Positions 2,170 to 16,822 of a stretch of 17,413 nucleotides of DNA are shown piece after piece (position 1 is the stretch's first letter; every line of letters begins with the position of its first letter). Origin of the DNA: Promethearchaeota archaeon (GTDB lineage Archaea > Asgardarchaeota > Lokiarchaeia > Sigynarchaeales > SOKP01); assembly GCA_030608765.1 (NCBI GenBank), contig JAUWDN010000003.1, forward strand, positions 1-17,413. Reading direction: 5' to 3'. Made by a program: the position numbers and the translations under genes. The notes below the pieces were generated by a model. The model saw nothing but the letters and a program-made list of their open reading frames with translations. It did no database searches and was not told where the DNA came from.

Positions 2170-3243
2170 TTGAAAATTCTGGAAATAGATAAAAAGTACG
2201 AAAACATTTCGGTAAGAACTGAAAATTTAAACGATTTATGGACGCTATTTAATGTAATTGATAAAAGTGACGAGGTCTCAGCTAGAACTCACAGAAGAAT
2301 TGTGTTAAAGGAAGGTTCTAAGGGTGAAAGAAAACGAATGAACTTGAAACTTAAAGTTGAATCTGTCTCTTTCCACGAATTTTCAAATAGATTAAGGGTA
2401 AAGGGGACTATATTAGAAGGTCCAGAAGACTTCGTCTCTTATGGAACATACCATACATTCAATATAGAACCTGGACAAAAGTTAACAATTAAAAAAGAAA
2501 GGTGGTTAAAGAGCGAAATAAAACGCCTTAAAAAACCATCTACTTTCGAGACAGATTTTAATATGTTAATGATAGCAATCGAAACTGGATTAGCAACTAT
2601 AGCCCTTATAACAAATTTTAGTCATAATAGGATAGCTACAATCAAAAAAAACATACCGGGTAAAAGATACGAACAATCATTTAGAAATAAAGCTTACGAA
2701 GAATTTTTTAGCGATGTAAGTAGAGTTCTAAGCGAAAAAATAAAGAATGTAAAAATAAATACTATAATAATTTGTGGTCCTGGAAGCACGAAGGATCGTT
2801 TTGATCAATTTATTAAACAAAAAGCCCAAATACCCAATTTACCAAAAATTTATTGCATTCACGCTAGCTCCGGAACGGAGAGTGCCATTTTAGAGACATT
2901 GAAATCGAAAGAATTAAAAAGCTTAAAGGAAAATGTAAAAGTTTTGCTTGAAACCGAGAAAATTGAAGAAATAATGCAATTATTTGCTACAAATTCCGAC
3001 CTTATCGTCATTGGATTTGACGAGATTTCTAACGCAATTGAAAAAGGTGCTATAAAAGAATTGTTTTGCGCCGATATTTTAATAAGAGGGGCTACAAAAG
3101 AAAAAAAATTACAAATCGAGCGTATTTTAAATGGAGTTGAAAGGGGGGGTGGAAAAATTAATATTTTAAGTAGTGAACACCCAACTGGACAACAAATAAT
3201 TGATTTAGGATCTCTCGTTGCTATTTTAAGGTATAAAATTTAG
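2170..3243 (+). CDS. pelA: Pelota (aPelota/Dom34), mRNA surveillance and ribosome rescue factor
   Basis: This 357-residue protein has the length and three-domain order of archaeal Pelota. An Sm-like N-terminal domain spans about 1-130. A central eRF1-domain-2-like fold, about 135-260, contains GLATIALI, IPGKR and the GPGSTKDRF stretch where the family usually has GPGFxK. The C-terminal L7Ae-like domain, about 265-357, has the signature IEKGAIKEL and ends with GQQIIDLGSLVAILRY. As in all Pelotas there is no GGQ motif. The family binds the A site of stalled ribosomes with aIF2/aEF1-alpha-type GTPases and ABCE1, and splits them. The start is TTG at 2170, because the N-terminal KILEIDKKYE begins the conserved domain directly. 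It is transcribed from its own predicted promoter, and a radical SAM gene follows after 31 bases. Confidence 0.93.
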   Translation: MKILEIDKKYENISVRTENLNDLWTLFNVIDKSDEVSARTHRRIVLKEGSKGERKRMNLKLKVESVSFHEFSNRLRVKGTILEGPEDFVSYGTYHTFNIEPGQKLTIKKERWLKSEIKRLKKPSTFETDFNMLMIAIETGLATIALITNFSHNRIATIKKNIPGKRYEQSFRNKAYEEFFSDVSRVLSEKIKNVKINTIIICGPGSTKDRFDQFIKQKAQIPNLPKIYCIHASSGTESAILETLKSKELKSLKENVKVLLETEKIEEIMQLFATNSDLIVIGFDEISNAIEKGAIKELFCADILIRGATKEKKLQIERILNGVERGGGKINILSSEHPTGQQIIDLGSLVAILRYKI

Positions 3244-5163: not shown

Positions 5164-5592
5164 ATGGCAGAAGAATTCGCAAATTTCATGCAAGAAGCTA
5201 AAAAAGCTCCACTTGAAGAAAAATTAAATACATTTGGCGATATCGTTGAAAGGATGATGTCAATGATTCTAAGAATACCAGATTTAGTAGATCAGTCTTT
5301 AGCTAATGTCGGTCAAAGAATATCAACATTAGAATCGCGAATTACTACTATAAATAATGAAGTTTCAGCATTAAGAACAAGAGGGACCGGGGCATCTCCA
5401 GTTATTGCAGCACCTTCGGCCCCTGCTAGCGCGCCGCCTCCATCGGGAGGACCACCGGGAGGACCACCGGGAGGACCACCGCCTCCACCGGGAGGCCCTG
5501 GAGGGGTACGTCCAGCAAGCCCCGTAAGCTTAAGAGGGGCTATAATGGGCGAACTAAAGCAATTATTTTCAAAACGAGCTCAATCAGGATAA
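5164..5592 (+). CDS. CCDC53/WASHC3-like protein with coiled coil and polyproline segment
   Basis: This 142-residue protein has three parts. Residues 10-75 are helical; 44-71 form a heptad coiled coil (LANVGQRISTLESRITTINN) resembling the CCDC53 subunit of the eukaryotic WASH complex, where FLNRF...LSLRIQQIETTLNILDAKLSSI occupies the same layout. Residues 87-114 are a glycine-proline tract with GGPP repeats and a PPPPP run, the kind of sequence profilin binds. A C-terminal amphipathic helix, SLRGAIMGELKQLFSKR at 122-138, lies where WASP-family proteins carry WH2 motifs, although the LKKV strand is not intact. A role in actin regulation is therefore inferred, not shown. Asgard profilins and WASH-like annotations exist in the literature. 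The short region is GC-rich against its AT-rich surroundings. The gene is monocistronic, since the next gene is convergent. Confidence 0.75.
   Translation: MAEEFANFMQEAKKAPLEEKLNTFGDIVERMMSMILRIPDLVDQSLANVGQRISTLESRITTINNEVSALRTRGTGASPVIAAPSAPASAPPPSGGPPGGPPGGPPPPPGGPGGVRPASPVSLRGAIMGELKQLFSKRAQSG
5445..5480 (+). repeat. Three exact tandem copies of a 12-base unit in the polyproline coding region
   Basis: The unit GGGAGGACCACC occurs three times in a row and encodes repeated Gly-Gly-Pro-Pro; a partial copy (GGGAGG) follows after a proline-codon spacer. Because the repeat is exact at DNA level, it probably arose by recent slippage and may vary in length between strains. Confidence 0.85.
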
Positions 5593-5865: not shown

Positions 5866-6477
5866 TTAAAATTCAAGAAATCCAGGATCGTCAAAAATAT
5901 CTTCAATTTTCTTTGCTTTCTTCATATCGCTTTCGTCATGTTCTGTAAATAAAGATTCATCATCAGTTTTAATTCCTTTTTCCAATTCTAACGAGTCTAA
6001 TTGAAGTAAAGCGCCTTTTTCTAATCTTTTATATTCTTCAGCTTTAATTTTCCATTTATTTACTTCATCGAGATTCACATTGTCTTCATCTTCTAAGGCT
6101 TCTGCAGCTTTTACTTTGCAAAGATCCGATAAAATAGAATAGCAGAGAACTAATTCCCCCCATTGATTTTTCTGTTTAAATTTCCCTATGCGTTTTTCTA
6201 ATCTCTGAAGTTCTTGATCAGCGTAATGAATATCGATAAAATCTCCAAAGGCATCAACAGGTTCTGATATAGAATTAACTAAAACATCTTTTGTTAAACC
6301 ACAATGACCACACTTCACTGTAGCAATTGCGCTTTTCCGAATATTCTCAACCTTGATAGATTTTTCACCGCAATCCATATTAAATGGGATATCCATTTAG
6401 TTATTTGGGCAGGTGAAAATCTTTGGAACTCTCTTGACTCTTTTGTAGGATTGTTGCTTTCTTTTTCTTCTTCCCAT
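5866..6477 (-). CDS. Transcription elongation factor Elf1, coding region split by a 30-base intron
   Basis: The gene reads from ATG 6477 to stop at 5866 in two exons, 6477-6403 and 6372-5866. Exon 1 gives MGRRKRKQQSYKRVKRVPKI then FTCPN, a typical basic Elf1 N-terminus. Exon 2 begins CGEKSIKVENIRKSAIATVK and CGHCG, then SEPVDAFGDFIDIHYA, matching the Elf1 zinc ribbon and its EPxDxxxDxID signature. Joined, the protein has 193 residues and zinc ligands C23, C26, C46 and C49. Elf1 binds RNA polymerase during elongation, in archaea beside Spt4/5. Without splicing, an in-frame TAA at 6399-6397 stops the reading; the internal ATG at 6396 would make a zinc-ribbon-deficient protein. An unusual helical, acidic C-terminal extension of about 110 residues follows the core. 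A TATA-like element about 22 bases before ATG suggests a leaderless mRNA. Confidence 0.88.
6373..6402 (-). other. Predicted 30-nt archaeal BHB intron inside the Elf1 gene
   Basis: On the minus strand the insert starts AACTAAATGG and ends ATATGGAT; it breaks the CPNC codons and adds a stop. Folding gives a bulge-helix-bulge. Outer helix: UUUUCACC (6419-6412) with GGUGAAAA (6369-6362), extended by GC/GC after one bulged U. Central helix: CCAA with AUGG, three pairs plus one A-A mismatch. Bulges: AUA (6404-6402) and AUU (6374-6372). Inner helix: ACUAAAUGG with CCAUUUAAU, loop AUAUC, one mismatch. Splicing endonuclease cuts after the second base of each three-base bulge, giving ...CCAAAU joined to UGCGGU, which is exactly the frame-restoring, motif-restoring junction. 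The pairing and the protein logic agree independently; splicing itself is inferred. Confidence 0.85.
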
Positions 6478-11261: not shown

Positions 11262-12380
11262 ATGAGAAAAATTAACAATTCGAAAGAAGAAGTGGAAGAT
11301 AACATAACATATACTGACGAAGTTATTAAAAATAGAATGGGAAAATATGGAGCAGTATATTTTCCTTCCGATATTCAAGAGTCTATTGAGGACATCTTAG
11401 GCAATGAGGCTAAAAAAGAAATTTTACATGACTTCTTTAAAGCTTTAAAGAAATATCACGAATTTGCTAAACAATTAAAAGGAGCAAAACTTAATCCCAG
11501 CTTGACTGTTCTTTTATATGGTCCCCCTGGAACTGGTAAAACCTCTCTTACTCGGGGATTTGCAAAAGAGTATGACATACCAATATGCGTGGTAGAAACT
11601 GATAGACTTGTATCTCCTTTACTTGGCGACACTATTAAACAAATTAGAAATGTTGTGGAATTGGCAGCTGAAATCGCTAAAGAAAGAGGAACTTTTATAC
11701 TCTTTTTTGATGAAATCGACTCTATTGGGTCTGAACGATCAAATATTCACGAAGTTGGTGAAATAAAACGCGCTGTTATATCATTTTTGCAAGTAATTGA
11801 TAGAATTAATTATGAAGGCGTACCGTTAGCTATTTTTGGAGCTACTAATCATCAAAATCAATTAGACTCGGCTATTTGGAGGCGATTCACCTTCCATTTT
11901 AGTTTTGAATTTCCTGGTTATCAGTTAAGAAAAAAAATTATTGAATCATTCCTTAATAAAGTTAAAAACGCAAAAATCGGGGTTGACGACTCAATTTACG
12001 CAAATTTAAATGATGAATATGAAAGAATTCAAGGTATAAAGAGTAATTTGGAGCGTAAATTAGGCCATTCACCCTCTGAGGTTGGAAGTAATATATTATG
12101 GGACGAGCTTCACAAAAAACATAAGATGAAAGGCTTACTCGAATTAACCATGGGATATTCGGGCTCAGATATAGAAAGAGGTACGAAAGTATCTCTATTG
12201 AAAGCTATTTATACCGAACGCTTAACTTATGAACTTTTTTACAATTCGCTAAAATTAGTAGGAGGCACAGCGATCCACGTTAAAAGACAAGACATATTAA
12301 GTGATAATAAGCAAGGTTTTGTAAATCCTAGAAGAACAACAAATAATCGAGATAATTTATCTAGTCCACCAGAAATATAA
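11262..12380 (+). CDS. AAA+ ATPase, Vps4/Cdc48-like
   Basis: This 372-residue single-module AAA protein has Walker A GPPGTGKT at 87-94, Walker B FILFFDEID at 145-153, sensor-1 asparagine at 196 in GATNHQN, and the arginine-finger pair in AIWRRF (207-208). GYSGSDIE near 297-304 matches the sensor-2 region of the Vps4/spastin (meiotic) clade. The N-terminal 80 residues are a short helical adaptor region, and the C-terminal tail is disordered. All catalytic residues are present, so it should hydrolyse ATP as a hexamer and remodel a protein partner. Relatives include Vps4, Cdc48 and ATPases of bacterial defence pairs such as IetAS; no protease gene is adjacent here. It precedes the coiled-coil, SMC-like and winged-helix genes, which I infer to be its targets. 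Confidence 0.85.
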   Translation: MRKINNSKEEVEDNITYTDEVIKNRMGKYGAVYFPSDIQESIEDILGNEAKKEILHDFFKALKKYHEFAKQLKGAKLNPSLTVLLYGPPGTGKTSLTRGFAKEYDIPICVVETDRLVSPLLGDTIKQIRNVVELAAEIAKERGTFILFFDEIDSIGSERSNIHEVGEIKRAVISFLQVIDRINYEGVPLAIFGATNHQNQLDSAIWRRFTFHFSFEFPGYQLRKKIIESFLNKVKNAKIGVDDSIYANLNDEYERIQGIKSNLERKLGHSPSEVGSNILWDELHKKHKMKGLLELTMGYSGSDIERGTKVSLLKAIYTERLTYELFYNSLKLVGGTAIHVKRQDILSDNKQGFVNPRRTTNNRDNLSSPPEI

Positions 12381-15648: not shown

Positions 15649-16065
15649 TTACTTATCTAGATCAATTTTGAATTGATCGTATATTTTTTTTACACGATCC
15701 GCTGAAGGACCAGTACCTCTCACTCCATCCTCATTTACAATAATTTTCCCGTTTAGAATAGAGATTATATTTTGATCTTCAATGTAATTCACGTGTCCTT
15801 TGGAAAAAATGGTAGCAATTCTATCAGCTAATCCTTTCATAGGAAACGGTTCTTCTTCTACAGTTACATAATGATAGTATGAACTCCTAATCATTAGTTT
15901 TGGGAAAACCTTATTTTTTTCAGTTTTAACATTTATTAATATGAGGTTAGAATCTTCTGAAATTCCTTTTAATTGACCTACAAAGAATCTGTCTTTTTCT
16001 ATATAAACTTTAACAATCTTGTCAATAAGTAACCCTAATTCTGTATTATATTGCCTTAGACTAAT
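15649..16065 (-). CDS. Sm-like archaeal protein, SmAP3-type, probable ATT start
   Basis: Reading from 16065 gives 138 residues. The Sm fold is clear: ISLRQYNTELGLLIDKIV, then VKVYIEKDRFFVGQLKGI and NLILINV (Sm1), then FPKLMIRSSYYHYVTVEEEP (Sm2). A C-terminal domain of about 70 residues with GLADRIATIF, EDQNIISILNGKIIVNE and DGVRGTGPSADRVKK follows, as in archaeal SmAP3. Sm rings bind U-rich RNA. An ATG at 15894 would cut off the Sm domain, and no ATG, GTG or TTG is available upstream in frame. ATT at 16065-16063 lies seven bases after GGTG, a correct Shine-Dalgarno spacing, so I choose it. HypB, 97 bases upstream, is in the same direction. Confidence 0.8.
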   Translation of the reverse strand: MSLRQYNTELGLLIDKIVKVYIEKDRFFVGQLKGISEDSNLILINVKTEKNKVFPKLMIRSSYYHYVTVEEEPFPMKGLADRIATIFSKGHVNYIEDQNIISILNGKIIVNEDGVRGTGPSADRVKKIYDQFKIDLDK

Positions 16066-16162: not shown

Positions 16163-16822
16163 TTAATCGGAGAATAATTCCTCTATTAATTCAGGTATAT
16201 TTTCTTCTGTCATTGCACTGGTTGTAAAGATTTTGAGATTCGGATTAATCTCTAATGCATCGTTAATCATAAGTTCGATATCTACATCTATCACATCGAT
16301 TAGATCTACTTTATTAATAACAGCTATGTCTGAAAATTTGAACAACATCGGATGTTTTTGAATAACCCATGGTCCTTCTGTAATTGAGACCACTATTATT
16401 CTTTTATCCGTACCCAAAATAAAATCCGAAGGACATATCAGATTTCCTACGTTCTCTATAAAAACGACATCATAATTACTTAAATCGTGATTCTTAATTA
16501 CTTGAGAAATATGATAGGAATTTAATGCACATTCTCTACCAGTGTTTATTTGGACGGTTTTCACTCCGTGTTTCTCTATTCGATCTGCATCTATTCTCGT
16601 CGTTACATCTCCATTAATTACTAAGACTCTTTTATTTTTGGAAATTCTCTTAGTAATTGATTCCAAGAGAGCTGTTTTCCCAGCTCCTATAGCTCCAACT
16701 ACATCAAATGAACGAATATTATACTTTAAGAAGATTTCTTTATTCTGAGCTGCTAAATTCTCGTTATTTTCAATTAAATCCTCGTTTAACTCAATTATTT
16801 TTGATAAGTCTTCTTCTGACAT
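16163..16822 (-). CDS. hypB: Hydrogenase nickel-incorporation GTPase HypB, metal site altered
   Basis: This 219-residue protein has all G-domain landmarks of HypB: P-loop GAIGAGKT at 43-50, GDVTTRIDADR at 71-81, ENVGNLICP around 123-131 and NKVD at 170-173. HypB uses GTP to load nickel into [NiFe]-hydrogenase or urease precursors together with HypA. The N-terminal 35 residues are a charged helix rather than a histidine-rich nickel store. The known metal site of archaeal HypB uses Cys-His in ECHLDA and a later Cys; here the segment reads ECALNS, so the His is Ala, while C98 and C130 are kept. ATG at 16822 gives the standard length. No hypA or hydrogenase gene is visible in the window. Confidence 0.92.
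   Translation of the reverse strand: MSEEDLSKIIELNEDLIENNENLAAQNKEIFLKYNIRSFDVVGAIGAGKTALLESITKRISKNKRVLVINGDVTTRIDADRIEKHGVKTVQINTGRECALNSYHISQVIKNHDLSNYDVVFIENVGNLICPSDFILGTDKRIIVVSITEGPWVIQKHPMLFKFSDIAVINKVDLIDVIDVDIELMINDALEINPNLKIFTTSAMTEENIPELIEELFSD

Follow-up and report, generated by a model that had tools for sequence, protein, structure and literature searches.

The crenarchaeal cbf5 pre-mRNA reportedly contains a bulge-helix-bulge (BHB) intron, as Watanabe is said to have described in 2002. In the accessible text of a later study, introns are also described, as predicted and unconfirmed, for further protein genes of archaea and, at 12 bp, for an archaeal virus, and the (alpha-beta)2 type of splicing endonuclease is tied to relaxed BHB motifs in cbf5 (Yokobori et al. 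2009, PMC2738675). A 2020 paper, in the portion available, names cbf5 as the sole reported mRNA intron besides its own 5′-UTR case, HVO_1309 of Haloferax (PMC7714728). The accessible text of a 2026 survey of elongation factors reports Elf1 in Asgard archaea and does not contain the word "intron" (PMC13289920), and the accessible parts of two further papers discuss group II and group I introns, without mention of a BHB intron in any protein gene of Asgard archaea (PMC9887622, PMC6125680). No report of Asgard, Lokiarchaeal, or Promethearchaeotal BHB or protein-gene introns appears among the literature matches listed, a set to which preprints and most subscription papers do not belong; an earlier note on this DNA had known of no such intron in Elf1, and none is found among those matches. 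With elf1, the kind of intron known from crenarchaeal cbf5 gains a new, predicted host gene.

The predicted elf1 intron resembles the cbf5 intron in several respects: i) both are short BHB introns in a protein gene, with a relaxed BHB motif and cuts (here predicted) after base two of each bulge; ii) both occupy a conserved site in a functional motif, are missing from some lineages, and go with a two-subunit endonuclease; and iii) the sizes overlap, at 16-44 bp for cbf5 and 28-33 nt for Lokiarchaeal introns, so that 30 nt is typical of a BHB pre-mRNA intron and the earlier idea of an insert close to the smallest possible size has to be dropped (accessible text of PMC2738675). It is unlike the cbf5 intron in its host genes (elf1, rnhB, and genes for phosphofructokinase, a hydrolase, and an epimerase), in its phylum (Asgard), and in occurring in several genes within one class; moreover, cbf5 splicing has been reported from cDNA, whereas Lokiarchaeal splicing is predicted. 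The HVO_1309 intron is likewise an mRNA substrate of an archaeal splicing endonuclease (by prediction in our case), but according to the accessible text it sits in a 5′ UTR rather than between codons, and was reported from both in vivo and in vitro work (PMC7714728). Archaeal tRNA and rRNA BHB introns have the same motif and would be handled by the same enzymes, but their host RNAs are non-coding, whereas the exon helix of elf1 consists of codons.

The window, by which we mean the whole 17,413-nucleotide stretch of Lokiarchaeal DNA analysed, encodes on its minus strand an Elf1-type elongation factor in two coding blocks separated by 30 nt, with the following features:

6403..6477, minus strand: elf1 exon 1, 25 codons, MGRRKRKQQSYKRVKRVPKIFTCPN, ending FTCPN (compared with intron-less relatives)
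6373..6402, minus strand: predicted BHB intron in elf1, 30 nt, AACUAAAUGGAUAUCCCAUUUAAUAUGGAU
6399-6397, minus strand: in-frame TAA of the insert
6396-6394, minus strand: ATG following the TAA
5866..6372, minus strand: elf1 exon 2, CGEKSIKV...FLEF, 168 codons and a stop
6412..6419, minus strand: outer helix, 5′ strand, UUUUCACC, in exon 1, followed by a bulged U (6411) and GC (6410-6409)
6362..6371, minus strand: outer helix, 3′ strand, GCGGUGAAAA, in exon 2
6405..6408, minus strand: central helix, 5′ strand, CCAA, in exon 1
6375..6378, minus strand: central helix, 3′ strand, AUGG, in the intron
6402..6404, minus strand: bulge 1, AU^A, predicted 5′ cut between 6403 and 6402
6372..6374, minus strand: bulge 2, AU^U, predicted 3′ cut between 6373 and 6372
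6379..6401, minus strand: inner helix (6401-6393 with 6387-6379, 8 of 9 pairs) and loop AUAUC (6392-6388)

The insert is very probably a BHB pre-mRNA intron, likely removed by the tRNA-splicing endonuclease and sealed by RtcB. When reread, the coordinates and the stop were as the earlier note had them, with 30 bases including an in-frame TAA splitting MGRRKRK...FTCPN from CGEKSIKV; their exact removal yields FTCPNCGEKS and with it a full Elf1 zinc ribbon, as had been claimed. Against Pfam PF05129 the joined protein gives 4.1e-18 (residues 2-73), compared with 2.2e-9 for the 176-residue frame that starts within the insert, which enters the profile at position 28; exon 1 alone has no match to PF05129.

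All parts of the proposed fold were found again, including the 8-bp outer helix, bulges AUA and AUU, 8 of 9 inner pairs, and the five-base loop, and the outer helix proved longer than described: UUUUCACC pairs with GGUGAAAA (6419-6412 with 6369-6362), and GC/GC adds inward beyond the bulged U at 6411. The central helix CCAA/AUGG has 3 of 4 pairs. The window RNA folds at -19.6 kcal/mol (z -2.92), a value that 1 of 200 dinucleotide shuffles equalled, and shuffling the insert in 2000 draws reached the observed values of the central and inner helices jointly in a fraction of 0.0005. Cutting after base two of each bulge, the standard rule, gives the joined AAU|UGC and so lands on the proposed exon ends; among the listed window junctions that the protein allows, this one scores 14.75 and the runner-up 7.25.

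Comparison with relatives is the strongest check on the BHB reading. Our genome scan gave 30 loci, 24 of them Lokiarchaeal (L001-L024) and 6 from Thermoproteota; a class-wide search then placed an elf1 match in 72 of 83 genomes, many of the matches being broken at residues 25/26, and for 38 further stretches the DNA was fetched and the junctions were read there. The resulting set, with loci picked by eye, comprises 28 distinct alleles from 29 intron loci, the window included; a locus at a contig end (L109), two that duplicate the genes of L024 and L082 (L100 and L113), and two paralogues from genome G066 stand outside these counts. Both the insert and its clean absence, which the earlier note had proposed looking for in Asgard elf1 genes, occur within Lokiarchaeia, and intron-less sister genes (for example L003, L006, L009, L011, L013, L014, and L020-L022) have unbroken CCN NNN TGY codons. 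One intron-less elf1 (L010/L128, G010:C109) has an in-frame TAA after about 120 codons, and the same genome has a second, partial elf1 match (residues 98-193) on another contig, G010:C100.

The inserts measure 28 nt in one allele, 30 in 9, 31 in 13, and 32 in 5, so that 19 of the 28 are not multiples of three. Exon 1 is open up to FxCPx in 28/28 alleles; reading through meets a stop in all 28, and removal restores FxCPxCGEK in each. Group I and group II introns have a catalytic core and run to hundreds of nucleotides, and inserts of 28-32 nt were ruled out as either. The bulges conform to A[TAC]^N and A[TA]^T in all 28 alleles, and the central helix has 3 or 4 of its 4 pairs throughout, most alleles having 3, that is, a relaxed rather than a perfect BHB. 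Most 31-nt alleles have little intron sequence in common with the window, yet keep its bulges and helices. Across alleles the minimum-energy z ranges from -0.21 to -3.59; the full BHB is not the minimum-energy fold in L015, L016, L019, L023, L024, and L098, and the inner-helix score is just 3 in L023 and L024.

The relatives are metagenome-assembled genomes, and a sequencing or assembly artefact in the window might be suspected on that account. Such an error is excluded for practical purposes, and we give it next to no credence, since the same elf1 site is broken on independent contigs by inserts of differing sequence and length, and rnhB inserts, described below, occur on contigs exceeding 2 Mb as well (G060, G061).

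Covariation among the relatives backs the BHB geometry. For 17 of the 28 alleles and 23 pairs, the structure being drawn from these same alleles, 89.7% of cells are paired, against 79.3% when shuffled; because a structure so drawn favours paired cells, double changes are the stronger argument. Ten of the 23 pairs are altered on both sides (39 such cells), compared with a shuffled mean of 6.0 and a count as high in 1 of 500 shuffles. The covariation score is 0.314 against 0.140 for shuffled data (0 of 500 as high) and drops to at most 0.083 when the partner is slid by 1-3 columns; at column pair 23-48, 9 alleles have GC and 8 have AU. The exon flanks of the 28 intron-bearing alleles show more Watson-Crick pairing than those of 23 Lokiarchaeal genes without the intron (Mann-Whitney p 2.7e-6, for rows that are related and hence non-independent), and the codons TTC ACC TGC occur in 17/28 intron alleles and in 0/30 intron-less genes, outgroups included. 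As exon sequence forms half of the recognition helix, selection for pairing seems to act on synonymous sites beside the intron.

The same comparison bears on translational bypassing, in which ribosomes would hop over the hairpin while the mRNA keeps the insert. Known examples, T4 gene 60 and the mitochondrial byp elements, have matching take-off and landing codons and are likewise short hairpin inserts within coding sequence, and in 10 of the 28 elf1 alleles the corresponding triplets are indeed identical. In the other 18, however, they differ, in 17 of these at the first base (AAT versus GAT in the window); the best junctions in the four further genes fall within a codon, save in 2 of 14 hydrolase alleles (L346, L349); and bypassing needs neither two 3-nt bulges around a central helix nor covariation of that helix. 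We regard bypassing as very improbable.

A broken or two-part gene, in which exon 2 is translated alone as a truncated Elf1 from a start in the insert, or in which the gene is decaying, strikes us as no less improbable. In half of the alleles (14/28, window included) the insert does contain an in-frame ATG from which the reading frame runs on into exon 2, and public predictions include 176-residue Elf1 proteins starting within the intron, 8 of them (P0052, P0092, and six more) among the 120 matches listed of 492. But the other 14 have no such ATG, 12 of the 28 have no ATG, GTG, or TTG start in the insert at all, the first CPxC pair is missing from the truncated form, exon 1 is open in every allele as noted above, and the BHB covaries. 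Given the in-frame ATG in half of the alleles, a truncated second product is possible in those, and could be a minor companion to splicing. If the splicing reading is correct, the public predictions expose a misannotation, namely Elf1 called without its first zinc knuckle. Another public protein, P0002 (193 residues, from an 808-bp ENA contig), shares 98% identity with the joined protein of the window; with K at the junction codon and another change in exon 1, it looks like an intron-less allele rather than the window's transcript, and the resemblance suggests a recent intron gain or loss.

Both enzymes that the splicing reading calls for, endonuclease and RtcB, are encoded in the window's relatives. 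PF01974 endonucleases occur in 24/24 genomes of L001-L024, in two copies in 21 of them. The alpha type has GPGxxH, whose His we take to be catalytic, in 21 of 22 loci and aligns best with chain 3p1z_B; the beta type, represented by 8 fetched loci, does not carry this His, and its best alignment is with 1a79; the endonuclease locus L052 gave no match in the His test. From these paralogues we infer that the splicing endonuclease is probably an (alpha-beta)2 enzyme. RtcB was found in 26/28 intron genomes and not found in the other 2, the assemblies being of unstated completeness. In several genomes rtcB and elf1 share a contig, about 9-17 kb apart (for example G008:C55, rtcB at 25437-26744 and elf1 at 37357-37965). 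The proposed sequence of events is that an (alpha-beta)2 heterotetramer, with one paralogue bearing the catalytic-type His and one without it, would cleave each 3-nt bulge behind its second base; the elf1 exons would be ligated by RtcB; complete Elf1 would be made from the joined mRNA only; and the same enzymes would remove 30-33-nt introns from the rnhB, phosphofructokinase, alpha/beta-hydrolase, and epimerase genes of Lokiarchaeia.

The covariance model of the elf1 intron is a weak guide to other hosts: at E <=0.3, with 62 of thousands of candidates scored per genome, the listed matches all lie in elf1-type genes, intron-less ones included. Other genes were therefore sought by gene-by-gene protein comparison of 1.46 Mb from nine Lokiarchaeal genomes plus the window. 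Stop-containing inserts of 30-33 nt that fit the same BHB cut rule were found in genes for RNase HII (rnhB, PF01351), phosphofructokinase (PFK, PF00365), an alpha/beta hydrolase (PF00561), and an NAD-dependent epimerase (PF01370). For these four genes a small number of junctions are compatible with the protein, and the best BHB fit was chosen. Their locations are as follows:

within L232-L261 and L358-L361: rnhB inserts
within L300-L308 and L342-L354: hydrolase inserts
within L318, L337, L341, and L355-L357: PFK inserts
G055:C75, about 2,575-2,800: epimerase insert

In rnhB a stop falls inside the match in 34 of 75 matched genomes, and 37 loci give 20 distinct alleles, all with 30-nt inserts and 3-4 central pairs, 18 of them with an inner-helix score of at least 5. 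The predicted junction lies within the Arg codon of GIDEAGR|G. When the inserts were shuffled, the observed score was reached in a median of 0.003 of draws, but in 0.45 of draws for L358 and 0.37 for L361, both divergent alleles. Across 14 alleles, both sides have changed in 7 of the 13 pairs and the covariation score is 0.314 against 0.211 shuffled (0 of 500), the number of further pair types being unexceptional (51 of 500 shuffles). For the hydrolase, inserts of 30, 31, or 33 nt in 14 alleles compare with 21 places that have none, with 3-4 central pairs in all 14 and a median shuffle fraction of 0.003; for most alleles the runner-up junction is near in score (10 against 12). In PFK the insert, 30 nt long, is represented by 5 alleles and absent from 24 places, just 3 of the 5 having 3 central pairs, with shuffle fractions of 0.017-0.040; a sixth row, L338, was a regex artefact and is uncounted. 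The epimerase is represented by one allele of 31 nt with a central helix ACGU/ACGU. In our reading, the five predicted intron sites fall in codons of strongly conserved motifs.

Insert rows with n = 1 were left out (among them G057 insert 10 and window insert 13), two hydrolase rows excepted; several such rows resemble antisense frames. The insert in NPRRPMSLEPQ was rejected as a protein-gene case, since it is likely an intron-bearing tRNA gene on the opposite strand. At about position 8789 of L200 (G053:C25) there is likely a tRNA gene broken by an insert of about 30 nt; ARAGORN listed 8 tRNA genes on 36 loci and missed the one in G053.

At least five genes in Lokiarchaeia carry predicted BHB introns, and the insert described in the earlier note is part of a set that the note had not seen. 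By DNA-level tests the elf1 insert is a BHB intron, with excision predicted; the original observation is confirmed and turns out bigger than first claimed. With inserts in elf1 of relatives and in four other genes, such messenger splicing is likely commoner in these archaea than the classic cbf5 case suggests. A broader picture has, in our estimate, about an even chance of being right: Lokiarchaeia would practise multi-gene pre-mRNA splicing by tRNA endonuclease and RtcB, with mini BHB introns in the codons of active or metal sites, in many important genes per genome, repeatedly gained and lost, and with expression of transcription, replication, and glycolysis genes dependent on splicing, a spliceosome-free regime near the root of eukaryotes. 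If the five intron genes are borne out, mRNA splicing by tRNA endonuclease is no crenarchaeal oddity and is present in the phylum nearest eukaryotes; the presence and absence data would serve to test the origin of BHB introns, and the link between two-subunit endonucleases and mRNA introns would become testable.

The covariance model, built from 17 of the elf1 alleles and applied to 62 candidates per genome, places the intron in elf1 of 28 of the 83 class genomes (best E <=1.2e-10 in each) and finds two additional copies on one G066 contig. These lie in L191 (G066:C2) at 878-943 and 1867-1932, in tandem divergent Elf1 paralogues with 30-nt inserts of their own and altered ends; by eye the inserts are nearer to the window's than to that of the main G066 copy, and the paralogues' neighbors look like an ATPase and a nucleotidyltransferase. 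Across the phylum Elf1 is matched in 160 of 227 genomes, and among the rows listed, which are protein matches, those broken at the intron site are confined to this Lokiarchaeal group. No viral relative carrying the intron was confirmed among 242 pattern stretches, nor was there any phage DNA match. On a protein tree of 54 Elf1 sequences (L010, L117, L120, and L124 left out; L122 and L123 without a protein), intron presence changes at least 10 times, gain and loss not being told apart, and the window groups with L001, L002, L004, and L008 (98/82), all of which have 30-nt introns.

The neighbors of elf1 between positions 168 and 16822 of the window include two radical-SAM proteins and a GNAT acetyltransferase, as well as:

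2170-3243: protein with three eRF1 domains, presumably pelota-like
11262-12380: AAA ATPase
15649-15894: Lsm-C protein
16163-16822: CobW/HypB-type GTPase

A small protein encoded on the plus strand at 5164-5592 has a PPGGPP-rich tract whose length varies among relatives.
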